Assembly (NCBI GenBank): GCA_947034885.2 | Contig: OX344749.2 | Coordinates: 8,447,501-8,511,500, forward strand | Direction of reading: 5' to 3' | From: Thuidium tamariscinum | Taxonomy: Eukaryota > Streptophyta > Bryopsida > Hypnales > Thuidiaceae | Length of the DNA: 64,000 nucleotides | In this document: positions 8,132 to 54,686 of the stretch, one piece after another | How the letters are laid out: every line of letters starts with the position of its first letter | Numbering within the stretch: the first letter of the stretch is position 1 | Made by a program: the position numbers and the translations under genes | Notes under the pieces: generated by a model | What the model saw: only the letters and a program-made list of their open reading frames with translations | Databases searched by the model: none | What the model was told of the DNA's origin: nothing

Positions 8132-8620
8132 GGGTTATTGCAAGGAACATTGTGCAAAAGTCGTAGTGTATTAATCGATACTCTCTTTTGGGGGGGAAGT
8201 ATTCTAAAATTAGAAAAAACAATTTTAAAAAAAATTATAAAATGTGTTTCATGTATACACCTTTAAGAAGAAGGTATCCGAAAGAGGAAAAGCATAGAAA
8301 AAATCTTTTAGTAGGAAAACTAGAAAAGTGCAAAATCTCATGAAAATTGGTACTTTCACATTTTAATTGTAAAAAATAGGAAAATCAATTTTAAGAAAAA
8401 ACTAAAAAATGACCATTTGAAAGGAGTTGATATTGTTGAGATTTCACCAAAAGAATGATCTTAGAACCATCTTCAATGTTCAAAAATTATGTGCAATGGG
8501 AGTTCTATTTGTACTCATGTAGAGAATATAAAATAACATATTTTCATATTTCATTTGAAAGTTATATGTTATACACCTATGTAAATAGACCATGAAATTT
8601 TTGTCTACAAATCATTAAAT
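8132..8620. mobile_element. Partial copy of family A element
   Basis: It starts GGGTTATTGCAAGGAACA, a diverged form of the family A tip, and continues with body sequence (TATACACCTTTAAGAAGAAGG, then a GAAAAGTGC...CTCATGAAAAT stretch) that matches the other copies, for example 10426-11173 read in reverse. No right-hand inverted tip is found, and similarity fades near 8620. It looks truncated. Confidence 0.55.
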
Positions 8621-10425
8621 TTGGGCAGTCATAACGTAGTGAGAATTGTAAAGCTCTACACCTTGTGATAGCTCAACAAAAATGATTTTTTAAATATAAA
8701 ATGTTTTTTTTTAATTTTTGAAAAAGAAGGGATCTATTTACCATAAAGTCAGACACGTTCAATAAAAATTTCATGCTCATTGGACTTGTGCTTCGAAAGT
8801 TACAGTGGACAACAGAAAAGTAAGTAAACCCACATTGTGTCAGGAAACTAGGACCGGTGTTCAGTCTTTGCAATGACTCGATGATCTCAGGCGAACATCA
8901 ATTTTCTTCATCATTCTTCAACTGCGAACAAGGCACAATCGCATTGCCGCCAATTGCAATGCGAAGAGTATTTTGTCCCGCAAGCCAGTCCAGTCTTGGC
9001 AGCAATTTCTGAAACCTCAACGTAACTACGAAACAATGAAAGAGTGAAACGCCATCATTCGTAAGATACTGATCGATCCGGGCTTTGCTCTGATCTTGGC
9101 CGGCATCGAACCGAACCGAGCGAATTCTCAAGTCCCTGAATGCCATCATCTTTGAATGCAATGCAACTGTTTGTTTGTGTAATGAGGCTGCAGCTAGTTC
9201 CGTGCTCCAGTAGCAGACTTGAAGAAAACATGTGCAACTTCGGAGTGACGTAAGTGAGCTTCGTTGTCGTGAGCCGGTGACAATCCATTGCCATTGCTTC
9301 GAGTCTGACCAACTGAGCTGCTTGCGGTTATCCGAAATGGTTGGCTGGCTCGGAGCTTTCAGTTTTCCACTGGAAAAAGCAAGTGCTTCGATCGGGGCGG
9401 GCCTGCCCTACAAACCGGGGTTCTTCACATGCCGGCTGAGTCAGAAGTGAGTCACAGTCCACCATGGCTGCTGGAGTGCTGGGCTGTTCAGTAGCAGCCC
9501 AGGGAAGCAGGGACGGACCCTCCCCGGCAACACTCATCTCCGATTCTGCTCTCCCGGGGCCACACGATGCCGGTCTAGAAGGGAGACAAGCCTATTATTT
9601 ACCACCCTGATTCGGAATTGGAATATCTGGGGCCAAACTCCAAGAGGGGCATAACATTCAGTAGCCCATGGAAGGACTGCCTTCCCCTTGGTGAAGTCCC
9701 CATCACCTAATTTCATCTGACATTTCTTGGAGTTGCAACTTTAGTTACTGAATGGTGTGGAATACCATTGGTGCTGAATGAATGGAATGGTGTGGGATAT
9801 TCTACACCATTTCATCCGCTGGGAGGCAGTGTAATAGGCTGCTATAGAATGTAATGGGCACAGCTTCATCAGAGGTGTGTGCTTGTTTCATGAATCAAAT
9901 CCAAGTGGAATTATAATTTTGTGATTGAAATTGCAATTTAGTTCATGTGTATTTCTGAAGTGGTTTGCCCTTAAATTACAAAATTGCTCACAGAGTGGAG
10001 TCACGAATGCCTTATGAAATAATTTCTAACTGCCATTCTGTGTATACAATGGTATATATGTGTTCACCATTAAATAATTGACACATTATCATTGTTGTCA
10101 TTACGATGCAATAATTTTGTCAAAAAAAATGAATGCATTTGGATGAGTTTTGGGATAGAATCGGGGTGAGATGGAGGAAGATGGAATTTGGCAACTTATA
10201 GACATGGAATGGTGTATGGTAGCCAACTCATTTTTTTAATCATATATACACCCATTTTGGTAGTGTAGGGTGCTCTCTTTTTGTACATTTAGAGATGAAT
10301 AGTGATCGATTATGGTGTAGTTTCTTGTGCTCTTGAGGTCCATTTTGATTGTCTACAAGTCTCTCAATATTGCAACTAGCCTTTGTTTGATTTTTTTTTC
10401 AACCTTTGTTTGGAAATAAAGAGAC
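8621..10425. other. Intergenic DNA with a GC-richer island at about 8870-9720
   Basis: The island stands out from the AT-rich surroundings and contains ORFs of 60-87 codons on both strands, but none resembles a known protein and no splice-linked series could be built. From 9730 to 9840 there are repeated and inverted pieces of GAATGGTGTGG, possibly the end of a decayed element. The remainder is AT-rich. Confidence 0.45.
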
Positions 10426-11173
10426 AGGTGATTGCAAGAGAGGGCTATACTATTTGGCGTCGCTGAATTGAAGTGACTTTGTGCCATTGGTTATAACTTT
10501 TGGGGCATTAATCCAATTTTATTACTTGAAATTTTTATTGAATATGACCAACTTAATAGTAATAAGATTCCTTATTTTTCAAAAATTTCCAAAAAATATT
10601 TTCTATTCAAATTTAAATTTAGCTAATTTGTCACACTTTACGATTTAGGGGTTTTTAGTACTATGGAGTATCCAAAATTAGTGATGTAGACTTGAAATTT
10701 ATGTGGTCTATTTTCACACTAGAGATTCATGTTTCCACCAAAAAGAATTTTAAAAAACATTATTTTATATCCTCTACATTCATGCAAATAGGGACCTCTT
10801 GCACATGCAATTCTGAATATTGAAAATGGTTTCAAAATCATTCTTTTGTGAAATCTCATCACCACCAATCCTTCCCAAATCGCCAATTTTTACTTTTTTC
10901 TTAAATGTCTTTTCCTATTTTTTACAAATTATTACAAATTAAATTGTAAAAGTGCTCACTTTTTCATGAGATTTTGCACTTGTCTAATTCACCTACTTAG
11001 AAAATTTTCCTACACTTTTCCTTCATAGGGTACCTTCTTCTTCAAGAAATATACATTGAACATATTTTTTATTTTTTCTTAAAATTGTTTTTCTATTTTT
11101 AAAGTACTCCCCAAAAAAACAAGTACTATTCCAAAACGAGACAAAAAACGGGAGGCCTTTCTTGCAATCACCC
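10426..11173. mobile_element. Family A element, diverged copy
   Basis: The left end AGGTGATTGCAAGAG and the right end TTCTTGCAATCACCC are inverted copies of the family A tip. The body shares the family's CCATAACTTTT-like left part and the GTACTCC...TTTAAAG right part. The 4-bp flanks (AGAC left, GAAC right) do not match well, consistent with an old insertion. Non-coding. Confidence 0.7.
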
Positions 11174-11245
11174 GAACCTATATATATATGACCAATATAG
11201 GTTGAACAAAATCTTTAGCTTGGAAATTCATGGTAATTATACTTA

Positions 11246-11870: not shown

Positions 11871-11879
11871 AAGTAAAGA

Positions 11880-13200
11880 GCCTTTGATTCATTCCATTTG
11901 GATTAGTGATGTGAAAGTTATGAACAATCTTGCTTTTGGATCAATCTTAGCATCTTTTGGAAAATAAACTTAGCAAGTTCATTTTTTGAATGAAAATTTC
12001 ACAACTTTTCAAATTTTTTTTGATGAGGTTCAATTTTCTTGCTTTAACAATCTCAATGTTCGACTTATTGTTTGGGTGATTGCAAGAAACACCTGTCTTA
12101 TTTGTTGCGTTTGGCCGATTTTTTCGGGAGTACTTTTAAATTAGAAAATTAATTTTAAAAATTGAAAAATATGAATAATGTATATACTTCTAAGATGAAG
12201 GTTTTCACTAAAGTAAATGGATAGAGAAATTCTCTAAATAGGAGAACTTGAAAAGTGCCAAACCTCAAAAAAATACATATCTTCATGTTTTAATTAGGGA
12301 AAAATAGTAAAAATAGATATTTTCAAAAAATAAAAAGTGGCCATTTGGAACAACTTTATGGAGATGGTCATTCACCAAAAAACCCACCAAAATAACATTT
12401 TATGTGTTTCAAAATACAAGCAGAAGGGAGCTCACTTTGTAGACCTCCACACCACATAAAATTAACTATTTTTAAAAATCTTCCCTGGAGAGCTAGAAAT
12501 CTACTAGAAGACCATCTCGTCCAAATTTCATGTTAAAATCAATAAAAAAAGGTTTTCCCCAGTACTAGAAACCCCTAAACTACCAAGTATGACATCCAAT
12601 CGGGTCCATTTTTGGATAGTAAACTATTTTTGAAAATAATGAAAAAATTATGGAAGGTTTATAATAGTTATGAGTACCTTTCCTACAAATCTTGAGTCAA
12701 TCAGAGCTAAAATACAAAAGTTATGGCCAAAAAACCGATCAGCATGCAACATGTGACACAAAATATGACAAGTGTTTCTTGCAATCACCCATTTTTGAAT
12801 TCCATCTTAGAGCTATTAACAATTTAATTTTCTTTGAATCCTAGGCCTACTTCTACATAACATTTTTTTAAGGAATGAAAATGAAGTGGGTTTTTTTGAC
12901 TTGGCTTTCGACAACTTCCAATTCAATTCTTGAAAACAAAATTTTTTTACTTCAAAGTTCATAGTGCAACTAATTTCCATAAATGGCAGTCAAAGTCATT
13001 TGAAATTATAGGCAAGTGTTCAAAATAAATTTATTTTTCAACTTTAAATGCTAAATATCTTCCAATATCTACAATCAAAGTTCATGAAAATTTTATAATA
13101 TAATTTCAAATAAGTAAAGTGAAAGATCCTACAATTGGTCCAAATATAAAGAATTGTTTCTTCAATGAATGGAGTAGAAATGGCAGTTTAGAGTGACCAT
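11880..13200. mobile_element. Fragment related to the TTAA element at 18435-19364, split by a family A insertion
   Basis: Bases 11880-12073 match about 18720-18895 (GTTAYGAACAATCTTG, then TTCATTTTTTGAATG). Bases 12791-13200 match about 18900-19320 (CTTCTACWTAACRWTTTTTTAA, later TTCATGAAA). The break falls exactly where the family A element 12074-12790 is inserted. Neither TTAA end is preserved here, so this is a fragment. Non-coding. Confidence 0.6.
12074..12790. mobile_element. Family A element inside a TTAA-element fragment
   Basis: The ends are GGGTGATTGCAAGAAACACC and the inverted GTTTCTTGCAATCACCC. Flanking 4-mers are GTTT and ATTT. The uninterrupted relative at about 18925 reads GGTTTTTCAATTAC, which fits a single GTTT target duplicated on insertion with one later change. 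The element is 717 bp and non-coding. Confidence 0.8.
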
Positions 13201-15369: not shown

Positions 15370-15740
15370 TTTGGGTAAAAGAGAAATAAACAAGGAATCT
15401 AACACAAATCATTTCAAAGTTTTTGAAGCATTTTTGAATTACTTATGAATTTTCAAACGAAATCTAGCATAGGGCCCTATTTGTGATTCATAGGCCTTGG
15501 AAACCCACACATGCTTAGTTTTTAAAAAAAATATATGGTTTTGTTCAAAAAACTAGCATTGCAACATCTAAAAAGTAATAGAGATGGTTTCTAAATGCGA
15601 TCCTTTCTAAAATTGAAATGAATGCTTGAATCAATCATTATTTCAAATTTTTTAACATTTGTAAGAAGGTAGTTGGACTACCAATTCTTATTTTGAATAA
15701 AACTAGTAGACACCTATCCAGTATTAAATATTCACTAAGT
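15370..15740. repeat. Inverted relative of the element at 23121-23705
   Basis: Read on the minus strand, this stretch matches 23270-23640 block by block: the GGATAGGTGTCTA, AAAATAAGAATTGGT, GAACTACCTTCTT and AATAGGGCCCTATG blocks occur in the same order. Its own terminal repeats are not preserved. Confidence 0.6.
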
Positions 15741-15858: not shown

Positions 15859-16593
15859 GGGTGATTACAAGAAACACCTATCCTTTTTTTTGTCCTATTG
15901 ACCTTTAGGAGGTAGTTTTTTGCTCATAACTTTTTCATCTTTTGTTCATTTGACTTGAAACTTGAAATAAAGGTGCCTACAAAAGTTTTAAATTTTGTGT
16001 AATTTTTTCAATTTTTTCAAAATTAGTTTACTATTTTAAAACTGCCCCCAATTGGATGTCTACTATTCTACTTTGGCCATTTTGGGGGGTTTTAGTCCTA
16101 TTTTGACCCAAAAATGCAAATTTCGAGCTGAAAATTGGCATGCGAGGACCTCACCTAAAGTTACACAAGACCACAAAGAGATTTTTTGAAAATACTATAT
16201 TGTTCAACCTCCACATGTCGTCAAAGTGGTTGACTTTACGCAAGTGTAGAGAATAGAATTAATTTTTTCCAAAGATGAAATTTGTTGAAAAAGAAAGACC
16301 TTTACTTGGGAAAAAAATGGATATTTTATTTTTATTTTTTGAATTTTTTACTATTTTTACCAAATTAGTGAAAAAAGAGCTATTTTCATTGTATTTTCCA
16401 TTATCTATAACATTTAGAGAAAAAATTTCTTAGGTCTAAATTTCAAAAGACATAATATTCTCATTTCTCTTCAAATTATCCATATTTTTTTCAATTTAAA
16501 AAAAATTTATTTCAAAGGGTCACAGGACTCACAAGACTCACTAATTTTGAGCCATTTTGAGCCAAAACCGGTAAGTGTTTCTTGCAACGACCC
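15859..16593. mobile_element. Family A element with perfect 4-bp duplication ATTT
   Basis: The left end GGGTGATTACAAGAAACACC and the right end TTCTTGCAACGACCC are inverted. ATTT lies immediately on both sides (15855-15858 and 16594-16597). 735 bp, no ORF of note. The left half carries a CTCATAACTTTTTCATCTTTT stretch common to the family. Confidence 0.8.
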
Positions 16594-17959
16594 ATTTCCA
16601 TGAATTTGATGGAAAATTCATATAAAAGTTGTAATATTCCTTCCAAAATAATATTGAATAAGAAAAATTGAAGAATTTTGATATTCCTTTTTATTACTTT
16701 GTTGTAAAATCCAGAATTGTCCTAGTTTCAAATTTGAGGCAAAAAGAACAATCCGGAATAGGCCAATTTATAGAGAAATTGTTCATAAATATGATAATAA
16801 ACTAAAACAATGTTTGATTTATATCCATGTTTTAACTCTTAATTTGAGGTCTTATTATATTTCCTTATCTATGAGAACTTTCAAAAATCACAAATTTTAT
16901 ACAATTTAAAAGGATTGTGATTTCATAACATCTTCCTCTAGAAAACGATATGACATACTTAAATACAAACTTAATAAGGTGCATGCCTAGTTGTTTAAAT
17001 AGAAAACTTAAATACATAGTCTTTTCACTACTATAATGTGATAAGATGTTGAATATATTTAAATTAGGAAAAAATTCAATTGTTGAATTAGACCTATACA
17101 GTACATGATTATGGTGTACTAACATGCCTAATGCCTTCTATAACACCATGTAATTTTTGTAATTTTTCAATATTGTTTTCTTTTCTAGAAGGACATTATT
17201 CAAAAGTCCAAAGAGTCTTGAAAGTGATACCCATATCAAACCATTGCCCATTGTGACTCTTAAACCATGCATTGAAGAAGTATAAACCAAATCTTATCAT
17301 GCTCTAATGTAATCAAGAGGCCATTTTCCCACAATCAAGTATCCATTTCACAGCCTCCTACTGGATAGTTGAAACTTGAAAATGCGCGTACCATTTTAGA
17401 GTTTTCTCCTATAGTTTGCATTTCTTCAAGCTAAATTAGTGTCTCTAATTGCAAATATGAATTCAAAGTTTCCAAAAAAATTATTTGTAAAAAATAAAAA
17501 TTCCTATGTTTTTTCTAAAAATAAATCCACCTTCTTGGGCCTAGTTTGAATGAAGGATTTAGCATCTTGCCATGATATGTGCAACTATAAGAGAAATATT
17601 GAATTTTCTTGTAATGTTTTTGTTTTTAGATTTGTTTCCTCTATTTTGGAGAAGTAACTAGCTAAGTATTTCTTCTAGTATAAGACAACTACTCATGTGA
17701 TACTTGGATGATACTTGACAATGTCTATATCAAGATTAGTAGGACTAAGGTAAAATCTTTGGAGTGTGTTTCTATTTTTCTTCTAGTACATGTGAGGTCA
17801 AATGAATGGTTATTATAATTGCCTTGGTCAAAAATTTTAAACAGGAGTTGGAAGTAAATTTGGATTATGGTAATGGATTTAGGATCATTATAAATAATGA
17901 AGGGTAGGAAATAATAATGAACTTTTATTTTTTTAATATTTCTATTAAAGCTTTGTTAA

Positions 17960-19611
17960 GGGTGATTGTATAAAACACCTATACTATTTGTTGTGTTTTG
18001 CAATAATGCTCATGAATTTTTCTGGAGTACTATAAAATTAGAAACTAATTTTTTTAAAACTTGATAAATATGACTTACGTATACACCTTTAAGACAAATG
18101 TACCCACGGAAAGAATTATATAAAGAAAATTTCAAGTAAGAGAACTTGAAAAATGCCAAACCTCAAAAAAATACATATCTTTATGTTTTAATTAGGAAAA
18201 AATAGTAAAAATAAGTAAATACAAAAAATAAAAAGTGGACATTTGCAACAATTCTATAGAGATAGTCATTCACCAAAAAACCCACGAAAATAATATTTTA
18301 TATTTTTCAAAATACAAGTAGAAAGAAGCTCTTTTAGTAGACTTCCATACCACATAAAATTAACTATTTTCAAAAATCCTTCTTTGAAGAGCTAGAAGTC
18401 TACTAGAAGACAATCTCATCCAACTTTGATGTCATTAACCCCTAAAGGACTAAAGTCCCCTCGGGGGACACTTGGAATTTTGGGCAGGCTTGTGTGACCT
18501 GAATTTTTGTTATGATTTTTTGAAACTTTTTTTGAAGATATAAAATTAGGTTAGCTTTCCAAAAATATTATTTTTATTTCAATTATTGCTTGGAAGCGAA
18601 AGTTATGCCATTCTAAGTCCAAAAAGCAATTCGCTGTGTAGGAAAAAAAACACAAAAAAAATTATTTTTTTATTTTTTATGTTTTATCTCAAAGATTATG
18701 TTTTGTTCTACATCTAAAACTTTGTTTCATTTTATTTGGACAAATAATGAGAAAGTTACGGACAATCTTGTATTTCGGGCAATCTAAGCACCTTCTTCAA
18801 AAAATAGCTTATAGAATTCATTTTTGAATGCAATTTTTCAAAATTTTCAAAATTTCTTTTTTGATAGGATTTGGAATGTTTGCAAGAACAAGCTAACCTT
18901 TGGGATCATGGTTTTTCAATTACATCTTAAAGTTATTAACAACTTAGTGTTTTGTTCAATCTTGAACCTACTTCTACTTAACGATTTTTTAATGAATGAA
19001 AATCAAGTAGTTTGTTTTTGAAATTTTTTCCCCTAATTCTCAATTCAAATGTTCAACATAAAAAATTTTAACTTCATGGTCCATAGTGCAAACAAATTCA
19101 ACAAATGGTAGTCAAAGTCATCTAAAATTGCAAGTCAGAGTTCAAAAATACTTTTTTTTCCAACTTTGCATCCTAATATCTTCCAATACGTATGGTCAAA
19201 CTTCATGAAATCTTTACCACATGATTTCAGGCAAGTAATTTACAAGATCCTATGCTTAGATTATAAGAAAATTGTTTTCTTTTGTTTTATTGGGAAGAAG
19301 TAGCAAACATGGCAGTTTTGAGTGGTTTTCAAGCCAGAAAATGCCCTAGTCCTTCAGGGGTTAATAAAAAGGTACTCCTTAGTACTAAAATCCCCTAAAC
19401 TCTGAAATGCAACATTCAATTGGGGTCTATTTTTGGATAGTAAATTATTTTTGAAAATTATGAAAGAATTAAGTAAAGTGTATGATAGTCATGACTACCT
19501 TTTCTAAAAATCTTGAGTCATTTAGAGCAAAAATACAAAGGTTATGGCCAAAGAATAGATCAACATGAGACATGTGACAAAAAATAGTACAAGTGTTTCA
19601 TGCAATCACCC
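17960..19611. mobile_element. Family A element carrying a nested TTAA element
   Basis: The tips are GGGTGATTGTATAAAACACC and the inverted GTTTCATGCAATCACCC. Flanking 4-mers are TTAA and CTAA (one difference). Without the nested 18435-19364 block the element would be about 720 bp like its relatives, and the sequence on both sides of the nested block aligns with 12540-12560 of the undisturbed copy. Confidence 0.8.
18435..19364. mobile_element. TTAA-flanked element (family B) nested in family A copy
   Basis: The left end TTAACCCCTAAAGGACTA and the reverse complement of the right end TTAACCCCTGAAGGACTA differ at one base. The target TTAA is present once in the expected empty site of the host element and twice here. 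About 930 bp; the longest ORF inside is about 65 codons and not protein-like. Piggybac-, Kolobok- or Sola3-type mobilisation is possible. Confidence 0.85.
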
Positions 19612-20638
19612 CTAAATTTAAAGAAAAAAATCTAAATTTTTTTTAAGTATCAATGAGATGTACTATAGCTTTGTGAGGAGTATTCAATTGTGGATCTAAT
19701 GTCTATTGGATTACTTTGTATATATATTTCAACTATATTTGACTAATAAATGTATACAAATGTAACTTGTTTTCATATTACTCAATTAAGCAATTGAACA
19801 AACACCAACAATTATTGACTTATACCTTGTGTAGGTACATTTATTAATATTGGAATGACTACTTGACGATAGTTGGTCATGCTTTGGTTCAATGGCTAGA
19901 ATATTTCAAAACATAAATGTTGTCTAATTCTAAGTACAGTAAGTAGATCATCAAAATGAAACTTTGAAGTTATATAGATCTTGGTTGGTTCTTGTCATAG
20001 TAGTTTGTCATATTCAAGATTATTTTGCGTGGTGTAGAAAACATTTGTACAAGAAACATTAATAGTATGCGAGGGAAGAATATTGAAGCATATTAATGGT
20101 CTAATGACGGCTACAACTTTAGCTAATAAAGTTTTGTTTAGTACCTCAAAAAAAAGATAGGATTCTTCAGGAATATCAATTTCAATGCATCCAAAAACTG
20201 AAGTTGAAGCTTGGAATCCACATGAATTTCAAAATCTTTGCTACAAAATTCTTTCTTAAATGACATGATTTTTTTTAGATCTAGATTGATGATATGGTCA
20301 TTATGGTATAAAAAATTTGAATGATTGAGAGTTGAATTAACACCTCATTGCCTAAAGTCTAAATGTACCCAAATGAATTTTTTTATCAAAATGGTAGTAT
20401 TTTGTATGTCATTTTTTTAATCATTTCCTTATTTAAATCTAAAGTGTAGGATTGTTATAGATTTTAGAATGCACAATCTAAAAGTAAAAGTGCCAAGTTT
20501 GAAGAAAATCTTGCAATTTTAACAGAATTTTGGTTCTAAAAGTAGACTTGCTTTCCAAACCTTATAAGTCTATTTGTCACTAAGGTATGAAAATCTCAAT
20601 TGTACAATCTTGTAGTATGCATGTTATAGATCATGTGG

Positions 20639-21404
20639 AGGTGATTACATGAAACACTTTTCAATTTTGTTGCATTTTTATAATATTCATGCCTTTTTTT
20701 TCTAGAATACTTTAAAATTAGAAAAACAATATGGCCATATTTTTTTTAAAATTTAAAAATATGGCCAATGTCAGTATACACCTATAAGATGAAGGTAACC
20801 ACCATAGGAAAATCATACAAAATTCTCTAGATTGGAGAACTAGAAAAGTGCTATATCTCATGAAAATACATATTTTGATGTTTTAATTAATAAAAAATAG
20901 AAGAATTTTTTTTAAATAAATATAAAAATTGGACTTTTGCAAGAACTTTATTGAAATGGTCTTTTATTAAAAATAACCACTAAAATTATTTTTTACATGT
21001 TTCAAAATGCAAGTAGAAAGAAGCTCACTTTGTAGACTTCTATGCAACATATAATTATTCACTTTTGAAAATCCTTTATAAAATGTCTACAAGTCTAGTA
21101 GAAGACCATTCCTTAGAATTTCAACTTTAAATCCATTAGTTTGGATACTCAATGTTACTAACACCCCTGCAGGCCTGCACCCCCCCATTGGCAAGTGTGA
21201 ATGTGTGATACATAATTGGAGGCTATTTTGGATAGTAAAACATTTTAAGAAAGTTTCAAAAGTAAAGGAAGGTATACAATAGTTAGAAGTACCTTTACTA
21301 TAAAATTTGAGTTAATGCAAGAGTGATGGCCAAGAAACTAAATCAACTAGAGGTGTGTGACAAAATAGTACAATCAAGTCTTTCATACAAATATGCAATC
21401 ACTT
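20639..21404. mobile_element. Family A element with perfect 4-bp duplication GTGG
   Basis: The left tip AGGTGATTACATGAAACAC and the right tip TTCATACAAATATGCAATCACTT are diverged but clearly inverted family tips. GTGG flanks both sides (20635-20638, 21405-21408). The body shows the family's TATACACCT, AGAACTAGAAAAGTGC and CAAGTAGAAAGAAGCTCA blocks. Non-coding. Confidence 0.78.
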
Positions 21405-23975: not shown

Positions 23976-24932
23976 TTAACCCCTATAGGTTTTTGACTAT
24001 GTTTTCACCAAAAACGTTTCAAAACTGTCATTTTTTAGACAACTATCAAATTTTTAGAAAAAAAGATTTTTTGACAAAAGTAGTCATAGGATCTTTTAGA
24101 GCACAGGTTTAAGAACATGTGAAAAAAATTTCAGCAATTTTCATCTTGTACTCGTGTAGATTGCAAGATATTAGTGTTTGAAGTGACAAAAATCATTTTT
24201 TTACCACTGCAGAAATCCAGGCAGCTGCACTTCAGAAGACCATATTTGTGTGGAAAAATGTCCAAAATGATTATAACTCTTTGGATTCATTTTTCAAGTG
24301 AAGTTGGCTACATGCTTGAAAATTTTTAGATCATTTGAAATTGTACAACATATAGGAAAAGGATAGTAAGTAGAAAGAAGTAGAAAATGAGCCAAAATAC
24401 TAAATTATTAACAATTTATTTATAGAGTTAAAAGAAAAAAATCTCAATGGTCGTAATGCTGTGTTAAACAATATACACCTAATTTTTATTTTTATTTTCA
24501 AAAATATTAAAAATTGAATTAAATAAAGAATTTTAAACTTTTTTTGTAGTGTAGAGATTTTATAACTAGCCAAAACTACCTCAAACTAAAAATCCTCATA
24601 ACTTTTGACTCATTAATCAAAATGGAATGATTTAAAGGTTTTCACTTAGATAAAAATCAAAGAAACCAATTTCAAATTTTAATCTCTTAAAAAAATAATT
24701 TTTGAAGAAGTTTTTTTAGCTGCCTGGACTGCCCAACGAGTAGAGAAATTACATATAAGCCAATAACTTTTTCACAATGTAGTCAAAAGTTATGAAAATT
24801 GTTGGGCCTTAAAGCTACTCCTCGGGCACATGTTGTGTAAATTTTTTTTAAAACACCAAAAACTCCATCTGTAATGAGCTGCCCAAAATCGCTATGTTGC
24901 CAAAAAATGCAGTTTGGTCATTTAGGGGTTAA
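23976..24932. mobile_element. TTAA-flanked element (family B), longer copy
   Basis: Ends are TTAACCCCTATAGG and, inverted, TTAACCCCTAAATGACC, with the TTAA target on both sides. 957 bp, non-coding. Bases 24200-24932 are similar throughout to 1470-2182; the left portion has no counterpart there. Confidence 0.75.
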
Positions 24933-28296: not shown

Positions 28297-31200
28297 CTAC
28301 GTCATATCAACTTCAACTTCTTTCTCAGTAAAGATTCGATAAACAATACGATCATCACGCGAAGACTTGCTGCTCTCCGACACGGCACATGAAACAATGT
28401 CCTGCACACCCACAAATGCATGAAGAAGGCATGAGAACACAGATGTTGAAGGCCAGTAGTACTTGCCTATTTTGAGCGAGCAAGGACCAGATTGGAAGCA
28501 CTAAAACACGCATCTTCTCTGGCGTAGCATTTGATTTAACAAGCATCTGCTAAACAGAATACTAACAAAGAAATAAAACTAGGGGAGGAACATTTCCGGT
28601 GAAGATGGCGATCGACATACCTTAACATTCCTGTGCGACAGGAATTTTCTGAGGCAATGTAGGAGCCGCCGTACATCATCGGACTGCAAGACGTTGGCAA
28701 AGATAAGACTAAATGGACATCAAGACAGAAAAAACAAACCTTGCAAGTGGATAAAACCAAGAAACACACTCATCCTAGAGCTGTGAATGAAGCATTGTCA
28801 AGAGCAACTACAAATACATGAGCAACAATGACAAAAGGCTCAAGTGAGAAATCAGACCTTGAGATACCCCATTCTGTTCCTGTCAAAATATCGATATGCC
28901 TGTACGCAAACAACGTAAGGAATTAAATCAGTAAACCCTTACGACTTTGAAAATCATGGTGACATTTCCCCCATAATTGCAAATTCCACTCGGAAACTCG
29001 AATTAGTCCTAAAGCAAATGGACAGGAGGATCTACAGAACAATAACCAGGATTTTATCTCACCAGGAGTAGCTCTTCGTCCACTACAACCTTCTTCTCTA
29101 CCTTCCGCTCTTCTATTTTCTCTGCCTGCAAAACCAATTCAAAATTACACCATGGATCAAAATGTTGAACTGATACTACAGATGACATTATTTACATACC
29201 AGTTAAATGACAAAAAGATCTTGGTATTTTGAGATTGTTTAAGGAGGTTGACTAGTTCAATTAAGGAAAATTCTTAAAATGATCGAAAGTAACGCCGTGA
29301 TTCAAATAGACATGCTGAAAATTTAGACTTGTGCTCAAAATAGCTCGATGGGACTTAGATGGCACGTAGGCGCAACTAATTTACGTGCCGTGCATTAATG
29401 ACTTCACCAACATACCTCAACTTGTCTTTCCGTAGACGCAGCAGCGTCAGTCATTTCTGCATCTTTAAGCTCTTGCTTGACATGGTCAGTGCCATTTACT
29501 TCTGCGGTCTTAATCACACTAACTGCACTCGTAGGAGTAGCCTGAGAGTCTCCAGCGTCAGGTTCTTTCTTGCCATCGTTCTCCTCTATTTTATCACCCT
29601 CTGACCCATTTTCCTCCACTTTTTCTGCAGTCTTGAGAGGTTCTTCATCAGTCTTTACGTCTAAGATTGCTTTTGCATCCACCTCAACCTTCACCTCTAC
29701 TTCTGGTTTGTCAGAAAATTTACTGCGCTTCCGCTGGGAGGATGAGCCTTCTGCATCCACTTCTTTCTCATTCTCTTGTTTCCGTTTCTTCTCCTCTTTT
29801 CTACGAGCGTGGCTCTCTTCTCGTACGGTCTGGTCCCAACCATTGCAATGACAGAATGAGGAAAGTCCTTATTAAATGACGCACATTGATATTAAAGAAA
29901 AACAAACCGTAACAGATAAACCAAATCTAAAGAGAAACCTGCTCAGCTTCAATGTGCAGTAAAGTACCAGTAAATTTGATAAAATACGACTGCCCATCTT
30001 GAACTGTAGCAATTCTTGCAACACCTCCGCAAATAACGAGAGCTGCTCAACACCCAGTAGTCGATTCGAGACACATTTTAGTGACATCGGACTTCATACA
30101 ATGAACTCAACAAGGGATACTAATAAATCTACTCTCATATGGGTTAGAAGTAACGTCATTAAGAGAGGTAAAGGTCAGAGGAACAGTAAGCCATGAGGCT
30201 GCTCAGACACATATATCCACCATGGAATAAATTTGCAATCTATAGCTCGTCACTTGGGATTGCAGGTGGAAATAAAGTAAAGGGAGGTTACCTCAAAAGT
30301 GCACTCCTCTCTATCCTCCTCATCATAGTCGAGTAACCCATCAAGTGAGATGGTCATCGAACGCATCTGCTATGTCAAAAATAAAATTCACAATCCAGAA
30401 TGATCAGCCATTCGTACATGCGGAGTATTAAGCTAGGCACACAGAAATTGGGATCTGAGTCGATTGACATAACAAATTGAATGACCTATATAAGGATAAA
30501 TAGGTGCCTTCATGATTATCTGCTATTACCTAAGTGGCCAATCCATTATGAATGGGTGTAAAATTCGGAATAAGAATAGGACTCAGGTCCTGAAGGGACT
30601 AGCACGGAGCCCTACCTTTGATGACTTCGAACGTTTGGTTATGAGCAAAAGACCAGGTGCAGGAATTTCTTCTTGCGGAATCAGGAGCACCTTATTTTCT
30701 TCAGGTGCAGGCTTTGTTGGGTCATTCTCCACTTTGTCTTTCTCTTGGTTTTCAGTCAGTTTCTCCTTGATATCAGACTTTTCCTCAGAAATGGATGCCT
30801 CACCTGTTGCCCCCAGTGTTTCCTTTTCCTCTTTCACACCATTTGAATCACCTGCAAATTTTAGAAAGACCGAGGGTAAAGCACCTTTCAAGAATTATCA
30901 ACAATTTATTCCGGGACATGCCAAATGCCTTATCCAAGTCTCGCATTTCCGATCGAAAAAATTTCTTCAGCAAAATTTCAGAAATAACATCGCCTATCCA
31001 TTATTCACAAAGAAAACTTTAAAGCTGGCATTCGTACACATGTAAGGTCAACAAAAAGAAGCGAGAACGATAGATACCTTCTTTAGGCATCTTTTCCTCG
31101 GATGCATCCTGTGAACATGGATTCAAAAATTCGAACTAAAGGTCAGTTCTTTCATTACAGACAACCTCGCAATCAGACCACTTGCTCCGTTTGAAATCGT

Positions 31201-34200: not shown

Positions 34201-37200
34201 AGTGACTGATCAGATTGAAAATTAAGGTGATTGTGCTGGGTAATACATATCATGATGATGTGACAAGCGCCACTGAGGAATCTAGGAACATAACAGGGTC
34301 AAATCATCTCCAGAATTCACCTAGAAACTCAACAGTTCATGACGGACACTGTAAGTCAGAAGCTCAAACATTGTCAAAGAATTGAATCATGAAGGAGGCG
34401 CGAAGTGCTAAAAACACAATTTCAACAAACAAAAACGAGTCAAACCACTGGTTAGACTCATAGACCTTCCATATATTGACCTCCAAAGGAACATGTTCTC
34501 ACCTGTAAGAAGTCTCCCGACGAGGTGACTCTTTCCGACTGCGTTCATCCCGGTCAGCAGCTGGTGACATCTTGCGGTCATGAGAGGCCCTTACACCAGG
34601 ACTGCGATCCCTCTTCCTGTCATCGTCTCTTCTGTCTCTATCCCGGTCTCTGCCTCTTTCTCGGTTATCACGATCATACGATCCCATGCTTCCAACAGGG
34701 CCTCGGCCACCACTCACTGGAATTCTACTATTGCTCCGACCTCTATCCCTGCTGTCACCGTCCCTGCTGTTACGACGATTGACGTCATCATGACGTCGAT
34801 CACCACCTCCAGATCGATCCCCGCCTCCGGAGCGGAACGGAGGTAGAGGATCACGACGATCGTCATTTCGACTGCTCCCGATGCTCGGACGGTCAGAGCG
34901 ACCGCCGCCGTAGCTGCCCTCTCTCTGCACGGGGAAACCCCCTCCACCAGTTCCACGCCCAGCACTGTAGTCACGCCCTGGAGGTAGTTGAACACCACCA
35001 TAACCCATGGCAGGTGCACTGTGACCAGCATAAATTTGACCTCCTGAAAAAACCGTTTTGAAATCCATCAGTTTTTCAGTTTTCTACTCCCTTACTGCAC
35101 GTTTGTGAAGACAGAAAAACACAAAGTCAACGCTAGAGCTCCATACAAAAACTTGATATGTTGAGGATATCCACATATATGACAGATGTTTGATGAACAA
35201 TGAGTGGAAGTACGTATGACAAGCTCAGGGTAGGCAGAGTACCCCCAGGACCTCGCCCAGCATTCATGCCTCCATACACTGAAGCTTGCTGATTGCCTCC
35301 ATAAGCAGCGCCCCCACCCGCAACTCCGGGATTACGCCCTCCTCCTGCTCCTCCATACTGCGCAACTAATTCCGCTTCAGCACGATTAGCCCCATAGTTC
35401 CCTCCTATCATTCCTCTGGGAGTACCGCCATAATCCTGACCAACACTTGTTCGTACAGCAGTCCCTCTCCCAAGATATTCTCCTTGTTGCCTGGACAAAC
35501 ACCCACTACGAAGATAAAGATTCGAATCAACATTGTATATAGCCCTCCAACTTCCCCCCGAAACTGATTGTCCTACGCCAATTCTTATTCTCCGATCTCA
35601 TAATGCCCATGCCGAGATTGGGGGCCTGCTAATCAAATTAAATGTTTTCATTCCACAACATTGAGACTTTTACTTGGATTTTCTAGAGTCATGCAAAAGT
35701 CACCCAATACCATGCAGCGAGCAATTTCTGAGCATCAATGCTGTGAAGAGAACTATTACTATTTCTAGACAGTGAGTTTCACTGAATAGCTGGAATTAAA
35801 TGCAAGTCGAGCTTTCACTAACCGTGTCGCACTCTCCAAGGCTGGAGTTGCAGGTCCTCGAACCGCCAGCTTTGCGGCTTGCAGTTTCTGAGCCTCGAAA
35901 GCTTGCAGAACCTGAACCTGTTGTAGAAGGAGCTGAATCTTTCATAACCAAGAAAATGCTTTAGCTGAAAGAATTCAGTAAACCTTCCTAACAAATACGT
36001 GAACCACTAACACAAACTCACCGCAGCACATAATCAGGAAGAGAGCATATAGCTCAGACGTAATTGGATTATATAGAGCGCTCATCGGTATGTTAATAAT
36101 ATGGAGGCGAGGAAAAGAAAAGTTTAAGAATCGATATGAATCTCCATACAGTGGCTGTTTCTTAATTACTGAGGACTTTAAATCATCAAAATGTTGCTGA
36201 GCCTCACAAGAGGAGAAAACGAGCACCTGATTTTGCTGGTTTTGCCGATCCAGCTGCTGCTGCCGCAGCACATCACAAGAACAGTAAGTCCAGGTGCAAA
36301 CGCAAGGTCTGATTCTAGAATGACATTGCAATCACATTCTCCATAATTGTCTCAATAAACGCGGATTTAAATAAACGATTACAGTATACTCATAAGGAAG
36401 TTTAATTTAGCTAGTGAGCTTTGAACACCTACACTATTTTAAGAATATTTAGATCAGTAAGGCACCATTTCCCAACATATTAGTTGTAGTTTGGAAACTG
36501 ACCTGTCTTTGCTGAGCAGTAGCAGTAACGGATTGAGGATCTTGATAGCCGCGTGCAGCATCGGATCGAGAATCAGATTGTCCGTAGGCATTCTGTGTCT
36601 GTCCAAAATGCCCCCTTTCGGCCATCCCGTACTCAGCAGCCTTCATATTATAGCTAGACCCATATTGGTCCGCTGCAGTTTTTTGATTATAATCCGAAGG
36701 CGAAGTAGCTACCCCATATTCACTAGCCTTCCCACCATAACCTGCTGTTGAAGCACTGCCAGTATACTTGGCAGTGTCCCCATATTTAGCCACTTCACCA
36801 TATTTGGGAGCCTCACCATACTTGGAAACCTCGGCGTATTTTGTAACATCTGAGGCACCGTACACACCAGATGTATTTACAGATGGTGCACCACCAACCA
36901 CGTAAGAAGCTCCACTACCAATAGTGGCCCTACTATCTTGAGCTGTACCATAAGCTGTTGAGCCGCGGGTAGCACCAGTTTGCGATTGATAGTCCTCTGC
37001 GGATCGACCGCTTGCTCCCAATACCTGCGCAAGATTGCATTTAAAGATGAGCCTTAACAAACTGGGAAGACCACCAATTAAAGTTGTGTTGAGAAGGCCA
37101 AGTGAGAACATTTCCTTATCTTAGAAATAACAAATTCCACTATCCACAACTGAATGAAATTTGGTTCGGTACGAAGATCTACTCGGCCTATGTATGAAAT

Positions 37201-38832
37201 ACACCATAAATTCGCATCGCCACTCGTTACAAAAATTCGCACATTTTCATTTCCTGCCAAGGCATCAGCAGTAACTATCTCACCTGTTGGCTAGCACCCT
37301 GTGTTGGAGCAGTATAAACAGCTCCATACTGACCTCCGTACTGACTAGCTGCAACATTTGCTGACCCACCACTGGCAGGTACCGATGCCACACCAGTGGA
37401 CGACCGACCATAAACACCCTGTTGTGCATCAGCCTGTTGAGCACCCTGGACTGAGGCTTGCTGGGACCAAGCCACCTGCTGCTGTTGTTGGGCCGATTGC
37501 TGAGTTGCAGCAACAGGAGCACCATATGTGGCAGTGGTAGCGTATCCTGATTGAGCGGAAGCTGCCGTTGGTTGCTGGAACAACGGCACACAAAACCCAA
37601 CAAGAGACATCAGTTGACAAATATAAACAATCAGAAACTAGGGCTCCCAACAGTCAGTAAAGATGGATTATATACAATGAATAATCAGTAATATGCGAGT
37701 CTTTAATCCAAAGATGCTTAGAATATTATTAAAAGACAAAAACCAAGCCGCACACAGAAATTCGTTAAAGAAGGCCCAAACACATCAAACAGTAAAGACA
37801 AAAGATGCAACAAATATTGGGTGTAAACACGTGGGATATCCACTACAAGGAATTTCTTACCTGATAAGCTTGCTGAGCATAGCTCTGCTGCGCATACGCT
37901 TGCGGTTGTCCATATGCCGCACTTGCTGCAGAAGAGGGAGCGACTGCTTGTTGTCCCGTATACGAGTTAGCTGAGTACGAGTACTGAGAAGCCACCACCT
38001 GCTGCAGCACACAAAGAATAAATGTCAGATTGCACTAGATTTTAAAGTAAGAATTTAACACAAAATCCTCGGGATCACACTGCCATATGTAAGAAGTCGC
38101 CTTTCATGGCCAGAAACATTATTCAACGTCATAAATGTGACACTTGCAACTCGAGAAGACTTAAAGGCACAATTGTGATCCGATCGTGAACTGCGGAAAG
38201 CCGGAAACCCCAAGGCGACAATTCAAATAAGCATATTGGCGGCATGAAGAACAAAATCACTGGAAAGCAACATCGATCACTTCGAAGAAACGCATAGAGA
38301 GCCATCTCACCAATATATTAAATCACAGAGAAAAAAAACTCTCGCTGGATAAAAGATTGTAAATTTCACAAAATAGAGAGAGAAGTAGTAAAGAAGAACC
38401 AACACATATACGCTCTAGGATTCGTCATGAGAAAGCGATGAACTATAGTAACTGCCTGAAACCCTTAAAACTCCCAAAGACCAACTTGGCTGTTTCAAAT
38501 TTGGATTAACTGTTTTCCGTAAACCCTAAAAGAGTGTCAGACATGATCATGAAGTCACTCCAAGAAACATCAACACCTGTTCGACCACTCTAAGGCAACC
38601 TAAACCATTCCCTTTCCTACAATGCAACAAAAAAAACATTCCATCCCACATTGCGATTGAACCCCGATTGCCCGACCAGTAATTGCGTCCAAATCCAAAA
38701 ATGACCCAAAAATGACGCAACTCCTTGAAATTACACCTGCGGAACGAGAGCCGCTTGTTGTTGTTGCTGCTGTTGCTGTTGCTGCGTCTGCGGCTGAGCC
38801 GCAGCAGCTCTCGCCATTGCCCACTGATCCAT
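28297..38832 (-). CDS. RSA1-like: Plant CCAR1/DBC1-family protein (SHORT ROOT IN SALT MEDIUM 1-like)
   Basis: 24 coding exons join in frame: 38832-38737, 38001-37861, 37574-37284, 37024-36503, 36259-36227, 35917-35823, 35490-35243, 35043-34503, 34087-34042, 33826-33734, 33513-33458, 32933-32771, 32097-31880, 31697-31634, 31513-31343, 31108-31078, 30851-30616, 30366-30292, 30042-29968, 29829-29416, 29125-29063, 28899-28858, 28683-28621, 28401-28297; about 1293 residues. The start MDQWAMARAAAA is followed by ten Gln. Residues 1-360 are Gln/Ala/Tyr-rich, with Lys-Tyr-Gly repeats near 238-264; 476-655 are Gly-rich, then Arg/Asp-rich. The DBC1 core (about 670-930) shows PYSLVDVERDY, GGRWDEELDGGDP, TQLDLSGCKTW and EITVMFLPSI. 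Then come TISLDGLLDYDEEDREE, LSLFAEVLQELL, a Lys/Glu-rich stretch and an EF-hand-like AYRYFDRNRMGYL. In Arabidopsis the family member is a nuclear regulator of salt-stress genes (RSA1); this role is inferred by homology. Exon 2 and 5 starts could shift by 3-6 bases. Confidence 0.9.
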
Positions 38833-42784: not shown

Positions 42785-43504
42785 GGGTGATTGCAAGAAA
42801 CAATTGTCCTATTTTGTGTCATACGTTGCATGCTGATATGTTTTTTGGCCATAATTTTTGTGTTTTATCTTTGATTGACTCAAGATTTGTAGGGAAGGTA
42901 CTAATAAATATCATAAACCTTCCATAATTTTTCATAATTTTCAAAAATATTTTACTATCCAAAAATAGACCCCAATTGGATGTCACTCTTAGTAGTTTAG
43001 GGGGTTTTAGTATTGGAGAATACCTTTTTTTTAATTATTTTAAGATGAAATTTGGGTGAAATGGTCTTCTAATAGACTTCTAGCTCTCCAGGGAAGGATT
43101 TTTAAAAATAATTCATTTTATGTGGTGTGGAGGTTTACAAAGTGAGCTTCCTTCTGCTTGTATTTTGAAACATATAAAATATTATTTTGGTGTTTTCTTT
43201 GGTGAATGACAATATCCATAAAGTTTTTGCAAATGTACACTTTTTTTTTTTTGAAAATATCTATTTTTACTATTTTCCCTAATTAAAACATGAAGATATG
43301 TATTTTTTGGAGGTTTGGCACTTTTCAAGTTCTCCTACTTAGAGAATTTTTCTATCCATTTACTTAGGTCAAAACCTTCATCTTAGAGGTACATACCTTA
43401 TTCAAATTTTTAAATTTAAAAAATAATAATTTTCTAACTTTAAAGTACTCACGAAAAAATCAGCCAAATGCAACAAATAGGACAGGTGTTTCTTGCAATC
43501 ACCC
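42785..43504. mobile_element. Family A element, best-preserved tips, 4-bp duplication AGAT
   Basis: The left tip GGGTGATTGCAAGAAACAAT and right tip (inverted) GGGTGATTGCAAGAAACACC match over about 30 bp. AGAT flanks both sides (42781-42784, 43505-43508). At 720 bp it represents the typical size. The two subterminal regions differ: the left continues TTTTTTGGCCATAATTTTTG, the right (inverted) GATTTTTTCGTGAGTACTTTA. No coding capacity. The superfamily is open, because 4-bp duplications occur in Sola1/2, Ginger and Academ-type elements among others. Confidence 0.88.
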
Positions 43505-47661: not shown

Positions 47662-47968
47662 TATCACTACAAGGATTTGGAGGTACAAATGACTATCCTA
47701 AATGAGTGCAAAATAGTCATTCCGAACCTCAATGAGTGGAAAATAATTTTAGACCCTTGAAGTCATTCTAGACAAGTCATTCTTTAAATGAATGCAATTT
47801 TATTATCACCATCCATTTTGGCCTTGGATGAAAAAAAGTGACAAAGTCTACATGGTTGATGACGTGGACAAGTAAGTTTTTGGAAAAAAAATGGGCAACT
47901 GTCCATTTTTAAAGGACTTTTTGTCAATATGGATATCCATATCACCCAATTATGTAGTCATTTTATAG

Positions 47969-48290
47969 TTGTGATACAGTCAAAATATTGTTGACGTAGA
48001 CATCTACATCAGAGTCATATAAAAGTCATTTTAAAGTCATTTTGTAGTTACAATACAATCAAAACATTGTTGACATGGACATCCACGTTAGAGTCATATA
48101 GAAGTCATTTTAAAGTCATTTTAATGTTATTAACTTATTATGTAGTTGTGATACAATCAAAGCACTATTGACGTGGACATCCACTTCAGAGTCAAATAGA
48201 AGTCATTTTAAAATCATTATGTAGTTGTGATACAATCAAAGCACTATTGACGTAAACGTCAGAGTTATGTATAAATCATTTTAAAGTTAT
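47969..48290. repeat. Subterminal tandem repeats of the CACTA element
   Basis: About four imperfect units of roughly 80 bp share TTGTGATACAATCAAAGCA, TGACGTGGACATCCAC and GAAGTCATTTTAAA. CACTA transposases bind subterminal repeats, which makes these candidate binding sites (inference). Confidence 0.7.
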
Positions 48291-49249
48291 AATGTAGTCA
48301 TTTAAAAGTTAGGATGGAGTAAGTCATTTTATAATCACACATGAGTACATTCAAAGTTTCACAATAATATACCATATACAATAAGCCTTATACCATACAC
48401 AATACACCATACACAATATGCCATATAAAATATTTCATACATCATACATTACATTTGGCACATGTGCCATATGGCTTCCAAAGCCTCTTAGTATGAGAGT
48501 AAGAAAGGATGAAATGACATACCTTTTTACTAGAGGTATAGAAGGAGGCATGACAAAGCATGTGGGATATATAAAATGCAGGAATTATGTTACAAGTAAA
48601 ATTTTAAACCTCATTATTTTACACATAGTAGATCAATTTTTTTCAAAAAATGTTGAACTTACAAAAGTTGGGAAATCAATTCTACTTTCATTTCCAAAAA
48701 TTTCGTTTCAGATTTTGAGCCTTAAATCAAAATTTGTAAATATATTTGTACCATGGTCTATTTGGGACCTTGTAGTCATTTAAGAAAAATTTCAGCCCTC
48801 GAAGGAGTTGTGAAGAAAAACAAGGTAACCAAGCCAAAAAAAGTTCTTAAAATTATTTTTTAAAAAGAATGGAAATCTATTTTTTAGGCCAATGAATGGG
48901 GGTGCTTGAAACTATAGGATTGCGGGAGTAGTAAGAATGAAATGATTTTTATAGTATTAAAAAAATGTTTTTAAGAACTTCATATTAAAAAATTAAAAAA
49001 TTATAGAAATTCAGATCTGATGTAGGATCAATGCTACCACATCAACATTATATTTTCAAAATTATAAGTTTTTAAATTTTTTAAATTTAAATTTATTATT
49101 AGTATTTTAGTATTTTTTTAAATTAAATAATTTTTAAATAATTTTTTAATAGATCATTGTTGTTTCAAGGAGATGCAAATAACCTTGAAGGGAACTCTTG
49201 GAAGGAAATTAGCCCCTTTAAGGTCTGAAATTTTTCTTGAAATAGTATT

Positions 49250-49692
49250 GTCCATATTAGCTCAGTGCCCTATTTGTTTTTAGTGCAAAACATTGTACTA
49301 TGGTCAAATGAAGACCTTGTAGTCATTTTAAAGTCATAGAGTAGTAAAGCGTAGTCAAATTTTAGTAATTAAAAAATGACTACCATGATCTACAGTCAAT
49401 TTAGTGTCCAAACCTTTTTTAATGCAAAAAATTACCCCCAGCCTATTTTGGGCTTTGTAGTTATTTAGAGTCACATAGTAGTAAAACACAGTCATTGATT
49501 AGTAATTAAAAAATGACTACCATATACAGTCAACTTGGTGCCTTAACCTTTTTTAGTGCAAAAAATTACACCCTAGCCTATTTTGGACTTTGAAGTTATT
49601 TTAGAGTCACATAGTAGTAAAACACAATCAATGATTAGTAATTAAAAAATAACTACCATCTACGTTAGCTTGGTGCCTTGCCCGTCATTAGT
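49250..49692. repeat. Second tandem-repeat block of the CACTA element, interrupted by the nested element
   Basis: Three to four units of roughly 115-125 bp contain GCAAAAAATTACACCCTAGCC, CATAGTAGTAAAACACA and AATTAAAAAATGACTACCAT. The last unit is cut at AGAAAAAA by the nested element and resumes at 51964 with AGAAAAAATTACACCCTACC. Confidence 0.7.
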
Positions 49693-51061: not shown

Positions 51062-51325
51062 TGTAAATCAACAACTTCTATAGATCAATAGTTGTTGTAG
51101 ATGAATAGGTCCTTCAAAAATAGCACTTTCAAGGCTTTAATTCATAGATCAGTAGTTGTTGTAGATAAGTAGCTCCACCAAAAATAGCACCTTCAAGGTT
51201 CCAATCTATAAATCAACAATTGTTATAGATAAGTTCTACCAAAAATAGCACCTCCAAGACTCCAATTCATAGATTAATAGTTGTTGTAGATAAGTAGCTC
51301 CACCAAAAATAGCACCTCTAAGGTT
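51062..51325. repeat. Tandem repeat, about 77-bp unit
   Basis: Three to four imperfect units contain ATAGATCAGTAGTTGTTGTAG, GTAGCTCCACCAAAAATAGCA and CCTTCAAGG. It lies inside the family C element and accounts for most of its complexity here. Confidence 0.75.
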
Positions 51326-51431
51326 CAATCCACACCAAACCTTTGACTACACATGTTGCATGTAATAACACCAATAACCAATAACCCATCTCTTCTCTAA
51401 AATAAATATAGTATAATAAATTTATAACTTA

Positions 51432-51595
51432 CACTAGAAGAAATTTGTGATTGCTTCAACAAAATCCACTTGATGTGTTTGTTGAGGCAAATACAAAAAC
51501 TGCGTTGAAGAACGCAGAAAAACGCAGATTTTGCATTTGCTTCAACAAACACATCAAGTGGATTATATTGGGACAAACGCAGATTTCTTCTAGTA
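51432..51595. mobile_element. CACTA-like foldback MITE, 164 bp
   Basis: Left end CACTAGAAGAAATTTGTG and right end (inverted) ACTAGAAGAAATCTGCG, with TTA on both sides (51429-51431, 51596-51598) if the last base of the right tip has changed from G. Long inner arms also pair (CACTTGATGTGTTTGTTGA with its inverse), so almost the whole element can fold into one hairpin. Confidence 0.75.
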
Positions 51596-52433: not shown

Positions 52434-53172
52434 GGGCAATTGCATGAAAGACTTGTACTATTCTCCGTCACACGTCTCATGCTGATCTGTTTTTTGACCA
52501 TAACTTTTTCATTTTTGCTCCAAATGACTCAAGATTTCTAGACAAGGTGCTCATAACTATTATATGGCTTACATGAATTTTTGATAATTTTCAAAAATAT
52601 TTTAATATAAAAATAGTACTAGTGATTGAATATCACATATTCACATATGACAATTTGGAGGTTTTTAGTACTATGGAATACCTTTTTTTGATGATTTTGA
52701 GATGAAATTTGGATGAGATGGTCTTCTAATAGACTTCTAGCTTTCCACAAAAGGATTTTCAAAAATAGTTAATTTATGTCATGTGGAGGTCTACAAAGAG
52801 AGCTTCATTCTGCTTGTATTTTGAAACATATAAAATATTATTTTGATAGGTTCTTTGGTGAATGACCATCTCCATAAAGTTGTTGCAAATGGACACTTTT
52901 TATTTTTTGTATTTACTTATCTTTACTATTTTTCCCTAATTAAAACATGAAAGTATGTATTTTCTTGAGGTTTGGCACTTTTCTAGTTCTCCTACTTAGA
53001 AAATTTTCTATACAATTCCTTTTGTAGGTACCTTTGTCTTACAAGTATATACATAAGTCATATTTTTAAAAAAATTTAAAAATTATTTCTCTAATTAAAT
53101 AGTACTCTAGAAAAAGTCAGGAGTACTATTGCAAAATGCAACAAATAGTACAAGTCTTTCGTGCAATCACCC
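52434..53172. mobile_element. Family A element inside the Mutator-like gene
   Basis: Left tip GGGCAATTGCATGAAAGAC and right tip (inverted) GGGTGATTGCACGAAAGAC. Flanking 4-mers are TGGT and TAGT (one difference). Body blocks such as TCTAATAGACTTCTAGCT and GTAGGTACCTTTG match the copy at 42785-43504. 739 bp, non-coding. On the minus strand it separates ISRAT from STIALSTSKDF of the transposase. Confidence 0.82.
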
Positions 53173-53603
53173 TAGTGGCCCTAGATATCTTAGCCACTTG
53201 CTTTGCAATGAGCCCACTAATTTTCTCTGCGAAATCTCTGTACGTTCCCTTGGCTATAGGGTGGACATGGACTCCGAGATGAATGGCAGCCATACTCATT
53301 TTTGGGTCATCGCTATACAAACAATACATCTTAGCTTAGCACAAGCTTAGGCACATGGGTGTTGTCCTACAGACCTTGCAAGCTAAGATAGTCTTTTGGA
53401 AGACTCTCTCCGACCACAAAAGGAAACATGGTATACCCAGTCCACTTTGATTCATTTTTCCTCACGGCCCTCTTAAGGAAATCACAATCACGATTTTCAC
53501 AAACAAGGTGACCAATGCAGTATGCCTTATGGAATTTGAGGTTGTTGAAGTTGTAGATGTTTGTCGTAACCAGCTTGTACCACGGATGTCCGTCGTATTG
53601 CTT

Positions 53604-54686
53604 GGGTCATTGCACAAAACACTTAAAGCGTTTTGTTACACCCTAGTTTTTTATTTTTTCTTTGGCTATAACTTTTGTGCTTTAGCTCCAAATGACTCAA
53701 AATTTATAGGGAAGCTACTCATAGCTATTATATATCTAAAATAGATTTTGGAGATTTTTCAAAAATAATTTATTATTTTTAAATAGCCCCAAAAATTTCT
53801 TACAATACTTGATTAAGGGTTTTTAGCACCACGTTTCTCCAAAAAAACGAATTTTGACCTAAATTTTGGAAAAGATGGTCTCTTAATAGACTTATAGCTA
53901 CCATCCAAAGGAATTCTAAAAATATTTATTTTTATATGTTGTAGAAGTCCACAAAAAGAGCTTCATTTTGCATTTTTTTTCCAAAGGTATAAAACATCAT
54001 TTTGGTGAGTTTTTTGGTCAAATCTCATCTCCAAAAAGTTTTTTCAAATGTTGCATTTTGATGTATTTAAAAAAAATCCTATTTTTTACAAATTAAAATG
54101 TCACAATGTGTATTTTCTTCACCAAAATTTTATGAGAATTCTATGTCTAAAGTTCCGGTGAAGAAAATATACCTTGTGACATTTTAATTTGTAAAAATAA
54201 GTTTGTTTTTTTAAATAAATAAAAATAAAGCATTTGAAAAAACTTTTTGGTGATGAGATTTGACCAAAAAACTCACCAAAATAATGTTTTATACCTTTGG
54301 AAAAAAATGCAGAATGAAGCTCTTTTTGTGGACTTCTACAATACATAAAAATAAATACTTTTAGAATTCCTTTGGATGGTAGCTATAAGTCTATTAAGAG
54401 ACCATCCTCTCCAAATTTTAGGTCAAAATTCGGTTTTTTGGAGAAACGTGGTGCTAAAAACCCTTAAATCAAGTATTGTGAGAAATTTTTGGGGCTATTT
54501 AAAAATAATAATTTAATTTTGAAAAATATCTAAAATTCATTTTAGATATACAATATCTATGAATAGCTTCCCTATAAATTTTGAGTCATTTGGACCTAAA
54601 ACACAAAAGTTATGGCAAAATAATAAATAAATAACTAGGGCGTGATAAAACACAATAAATAGTACAAGTGTTTCGTACAATGACCC
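53604..54686. mobile_element. Palindromic family A element (foldback), 1.08 kb
   Basis: The tips are GGGTCATTGCACAAAACACTT and (inverted) GGGTCATTGTACGAAACACTT. GCTT is duplicated exactly on both sides (53600-53603, 54687-54690). Nearly the whole element is a long inverted repeat: the left arm (for example GACCTAAATTTTGGAAAAGA at about 53850) recurs inverted in the right arm (about 54410), with a centre near 54120-54160. Each arm is about 500 bp and corresponds to one half of a normal family A element. No coding capacity. It splits the transposase between GMDK and QYDGHPW. Confidence 0.88.

Follow-up and report, generated by a model that had tools for sequence, protein, structure and literature searches.

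A window of 64,000 nucleotides from the moss Thuidium tamariscinum (contig OX344749.2, positions 8,447,501 to 8,511,500; positions below are counted from the first letter of this window) carries a dense family of short repeats with inverted termini, here called family A. The family is present as eight copies with both ends and two partial copies, in mixed orientation, and amounts to 7.5 kb, or 11.8% of the window. All ten sites named in a preliminary description proved to be real by two routes. A scan with a 19-bp tip, GGGTGATTGCAWGAAACAC, allowing up to 3 mismatches, found 15 sites, compared with an expectation of 0.03 from dinucleotide-preserving shuffles, and a DNA profile built from four copies recovered all ten sites and no further body copy in the 64 kb. 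Copies are referred to by their first position, and the sites are as follows.

8132 to about 8797, plus strand: partial copy that keeps its left tip, GGGTTATTGCAAGGAACAT; the profile match (model 1-435) runs to 8564, the alignment extends to 8773 with copy 10426 and to 8797 with copy 11246, and no right end of this copy was found.
10426 to 11173, minus strand: full copy, flanks AGAC/GAAC (2 of 4, eroded); profile model 1-730.
11246 to about 11881, minus strand: partial copy; profile model 116-725 at 11870-11260, with the tip read directly; one tip is present with a small insertion and the opposite end is lost beside another repeat.
12074 to 12790, plus strand: full copy nested in another repeat, flanks GTTT/ATTT; profile score 782.6 bits.
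15859 to 16593, minus strand: divergent full copy, flanks ATTT/ATTT; profile E = 1.2e-31.
17960 to 18432, plus strand: first part of copy 17960, left flank TTAA; profile match and 81% identity to copy 12074.
18433 to 19365 (about 930 bp), no strand assigned: insertion foreign to family A nested in copy 17960, consisting of an element at 18439-19360 with tips CCCCTAAAGGACTA and TAGTCCTTCAGGGG between TTAA sites.
19366 to 19611, plus strand: second part of copy 17960, with the right tip, followed at 19612-19615 by the right flank CTAA; 83% identical to copy 12074.
20639 to 21404, plus strand: full copy, flanks GTGG/GTGG, right tip broken by small insertions; profile model 2-725.
42785 to 43504, minus strand: full copy, flanks AGAT/AGAT; 89% identical to copy 12074.
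52434 to 53172, minus strand: full copy, flanks TGGT/TAGT; placed by profile and flanks.
53604 to 54686 (1083 bp), no strand assigned: palindromic copy, flanks GCTT/GCTT; self-inverted match, and profile model 206-731 on both strands.

The unit is 717-766 bp long in six of the eight two-ended copies, the exceptions being 17960 and 53604, and its GC content is 27-31% against 36.5% for the window. The terminal inverted repeats (TIRs) are about 30 bp, with the consensus GGGTGATTGCAAGAAACACTTGTCCTATTT when both ends are aligned, and nearly all copies have the tips GGG..CCC. Positions 1-30 are conserved, conservation then drops, and the bases outside the tip share no sequence; because the tip is conserved while the flanking bases show no conservation, the borders of family A are exact. 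The copies are non-coding: the longest stop-to-stop frame in a consensus of seven full copies is 60 amino acids. No Pfam domain was found in the six frames of copy 17960, in a search that recovered its positive control (an amino-acid transporter in the window, in short frames), and no Rfam match was obtained. The extra 930 bp or so of copy 17960 might be taken for an internal coding region, a reading that was rejected since the segment is itself a nested element, bounded by CCCC tips of its own between TTAA sites, and has no Pfam domain. Nor did the tip scan and profile find any longer element with family A tips in the window beyond the ten sites. Family A thus belongs to the structural class of miniature inverted-repeat transposable elements (MITEs): it is short, TIR-bearing, non-coding and multi-copy, with target-site duplications.

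A 4-bp target-site duplication is strongly supported. When the eight pairs of flanks are compared over 4 bp, 27 of 32 positions match, a value never met by random genomic right flanks in 100,000 draws and reached with p = 3e-5 when flanks are re-paired among copies. The four perfect pairs (ATTT, GTGG, AGAT and GCTT) have no fixed sequence and end after four bases. Three further pairs (GTTT/ATTT, TTAA/CTAA and TGGT/TAGT) match at three of four positions, and one (AGAC/GAAC) at two; four perfect and three near-perfect duplications are also what the preliminary description had counted. The result does not hinge on the choice of border, since setting the right end of 20639 one base differently still gives 24/32, unreached in 200,000 draws. 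In a scan of duplication lengths, 4 bp stood out (0/20,000): 2 bp showed no excess, p was 0.08 for 3 bp, and lengths of 6-9 bp were not supported. For 5 bp, p was 0.004, a value that owes much to copy 20639 having its end placed one base away. At 7, 8, 9, 10 and 11 bp, p was 0.35, 0.10, 0.55, 0.009 and 0.16, respectively; with ten lengths tested, the value at 10 bp carries little weight, the best copy reaching 6/10 at most and no single pair being good. In the 8-bp register, the best copy matches at no more than 4/8 positions.

The same length is given by an empty site, a result that is independent of the tip statistics. Copy 12074 lies inside a repeat foreign to family A, the two sides of which (11882-12021 and 12792-13131) match 18720-18859 and 18912-19252. 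When the joined flanks of copy 12074 are aligned with this uninterrupted relative, the best score is obtained by taking exactly 4 bp off the right flank; the relative, at 18811-19010, then crosses the junction without a gap. Nesting is thus reciprocal, with copy 12074 inside a foreign repeat and a foreign element inside copy 17960, and therefore there have been repeated rounds of insertion.

The host repeat of copy 12074 (11882-12073 and 12791-13131) is a truncated relative, split by that copy, of the element at 18439-19360. The latter is one of three elements in the window with CCC-type tips, together with 1447-2178 and 24204-24928; these two are about 80% identical to each other, while 18439-19360 shares only the tips. 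TTAA borders the three elements on five of six sides, the sixth being TTTA. This combination of TTAA and a CCC tip resembles elements of the piggyBac type, which are unusual for plants, and is indistinguishable in these three elements from a TA duplication with an ACCCC tip. Another repeat (15397-15720 and 17248-17374) is split by about 1.5 kb that include copy 15859, and has a nearly continuous paralogue at 23604-23142.

In the case of copy 53604, the element consists of two right halves, of 516 and 526 bp, inverted relative to each other and separated by a 41-bp spacer, giving a self-inverted match of 88% over 1098 columns. Between the two arms identity is 88-91%, and with the core copies (defined below) it is about 67%; both arms match model positions 206-731. 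The copy therefore has two right-type ends, and these are flanked by a perfect GCTT duplication. Either 53604 moved as a right-right element, in which case two right ends would be enough for mobility, or the palindrome was formed in place by repair. With its long palindrome, short spacer and intact duplication, 53604 resembles foldback or hairpin-type TIR derivatives; it differs in being the one such copy in the window, and in having arisen from the right half of a typical member of family A.

The copies have diverged considerably. Identity is 80-90% within a core group of four (12074, 17960, 42785 and 52434), and about 70% between this group and 20639; most other pairs lie at 50-69%. Family A was therefore long active and the copies in the window are old, with no sign of recent activity within it.

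Family A very probably represents old, short, non-autonomous cut-and-paste DNA transposons that were moved by a transposase making 4-bp staggered cuts, a confidence that covers the mechanism and the element class and is separate from the superfamily placement discussed below. The element class is assigned on the basis of what is well established about TIR elements. A transposase encoded elsewhere, presumably of the DDE/D type, would recognise the roughly 30-bp TIR in trans, excise the element and join it to a target cut with a 4-bp stagger, and gap repair would then leave a 4-bp duplication of no fixed sequence.

Most plant MITE families are placed in one of five superfamilies (PMC12550479), with duplications of 7-12 bp for Mutator, 3 bp for CACTA, 8 bp for hAT, 3 bp for PIF and TA for Tc1/mariner (PMC10741241). 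Family A resembles the MITEs of these groups (Tourist, Stowaway, hAT- and Mutator-type) in being under 800 bp, AT-rich, non-coding and locally abundant, with TIRs and duplications, but 4-bp duplications of free sequence are not made by the five usual superfamilies. Each was rejected: Mutator (Mutator-like elements) for want of a convincing excess at 7-11 bp; hAT on the 8-bp result (p = 0.10, no copy above 4/8); CACTA/CMC as the tip is GGGTGATTGCA and not CAC..; PIF/Harbinger, which duplicates TAA or TTA, as the duplications here are ATTT, GTGG, AGAT and GCTT; and Tc1/mariner as most borders lack TA and 2 bp shows no excess. The misfit of all five, anticipated in the preliminary description, is thus borne out by the 4-bp duplication and the GGG tip (lengths from PMC10741241). 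Sola elements make 4-bp duplications and have very variable tips, whereas Ginger elements make duplications of 4-6 bp and end in TG..CA (PMC10741241). Ginger1 and Ginger2 are like family A in being TIR elements reported in plants with duplications in this range, but their TG..CA termini differ from GGG..CCC, and Ginger was rejected on this ground (PMC10741241).

The most likely superfamily is Sola, a tentative placement at somewhat below an even chance that is made by duplication length and the described variability of the tips, not by tip sequence. Sola1 and Sola2 are like family A in their 4-bp duplications and in their variable ends and TIR length. Sola has been recorded from the moss Physcomitrella (PMC9033089) and is listed in a repeat table of the fern Ceratopteris (PMC6890710), and in flowering plants it is said to be uncommon (PMC10741241). 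Most known Sola elements measure 2-9 kb, and they code for a DDD transposase, in contrast to the non-coding units of about 720-770 bp seen here. Because the copies are non-coding, MITE-like derivatives, the superfamily is not readable from the window.

Several points count against this overall account. A perfect duplication is seen in only four of the eight copies, and in one copy only two of four positions agree. The 64-kb window contains no transposase or autonomous copy of the family. No domain came out of read-through Pfam scans of the six frames at 7-22 kb and 41-64 kb, in which sensitivity was limited and weak remnants could have been missed; the long-frame control is a reminder that such negatives are soft, as it recovered DBC1 and LAIKA domains in the window but missed the amino-acid transporter at 2943-4303.

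A rather unlikely alternative is that the transposase belonged to a superfamily that is undescribed, or new to plants, and that makes 4-bp duplications and acts on GGGTGATTGCA tips. The combination of a 4-bp duplication and a GGG tip fits no common plant superfamily (PMC10741241), a literature search turned up no transposon that ends with the tip string, and the tip pattern has no match in viral and prokaryote contigs, collections that hold no plant genomes. Against this, Sola already accounts for 4 bp and variable tips and occurs in plants, and a superfamily cannot be established from non-coding copies alone. The fuller proposal, in which family A is the trace of an undescribed plant superfamily with a transposase that binds GGGTGATTGCA tips, cuts with a 4-bp stagger and can use a pair of identical ends, is doubtful. 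Of the candidates in the preliminary description, then, Sola is favoured by duplication length and variable tips, Ginger falls on its TG..CA ends, and an undescribed group is possible with nothing that requires it.

The transposase could also have come from another described superfamily with known or possible 4-bp duplications, such as Academ or a divergent CMC/Chapaev-type group, although this too is rather unlikely. Chapaev elements make 4-bp duplications, and the tips of CACTA and Chapaev elements begin with CAC... The tip of family A is neither of this kind nor of the TG..CA kind found in Ginger (PMC10741241), even though 4-bp duplications do occur outside Sola, for instance in Ginger1 (PMC10045372). 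Academ is given 3-bp duplications (PMC5199201); when a duplication of 3 or 3-4 bp is taken as its mark, family A favours 4 bp, with p = 0.08 at 3 bp. For non-autonomous elements, the Repbase rule requires the same duplication length and allows no more than one mismatch over tip positions 1-11 (PMC4455052).

That the copies are MITEs of the Mutator or hAT type, with the 4-bp match being what decay has left of a longer duplication, is very unlikely. The copies are indeed old, mostly 10-50% apart, and G-rich tips do occur in some plant Mutator elements. Matches far exceed chance at 4 bp, however, with no excess in the 8- and 9-bp registers, no perfect pair extends beyond its four bases, and the empty site aligns best with 4 bp removed. 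That family A consists of solo long terminal repeats (LTRs), or of elements like terminal-repeat retrotransposons in miniature, with a 4-bp duplication is scarcely credible: LTR elements do make 3-6-bp duplications (PMC10045372), but the ends here form a 30-bp inverted repeat starting with GGG and not TG..CA, and one copy is palindromic.

The window also contains two gene regions, both on the minus strand. An amino-acid transporter gene (Pfam Aa_trans) with at least two exons lies at 2943-4303 and, as we read it, resembles the plant vacuolar AVT-type proteins. The gene region at 29404-37637 encodes the DBC1 and LAIKA domains, and is probably that of a CCAR1-type protein. Short tandem arrays are found at 49313-49679, 51080-51317, 47956-48298 and 59547-59776, with periods of about 136, 64, 79-98 and 82 bp, respectively. 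A 162-bp segment at 51433-51594 is a near-palindrome, 79% identical to its reverse complement, and is possibly a small hairpin MITE.

Family A is ordinary in kind: it is real, well-delimited and old, and its interest lies in the superfamily. A dense local family with a clean 4-bp duplication implies that a matching transposase was once active in the source genome, and the defined 30-bp tip offers a means of searching for the autonomous partner. Should this partner be a Sola element, the sparse plant record of this superfamily would be extended; if it is not, a new group would be opened.

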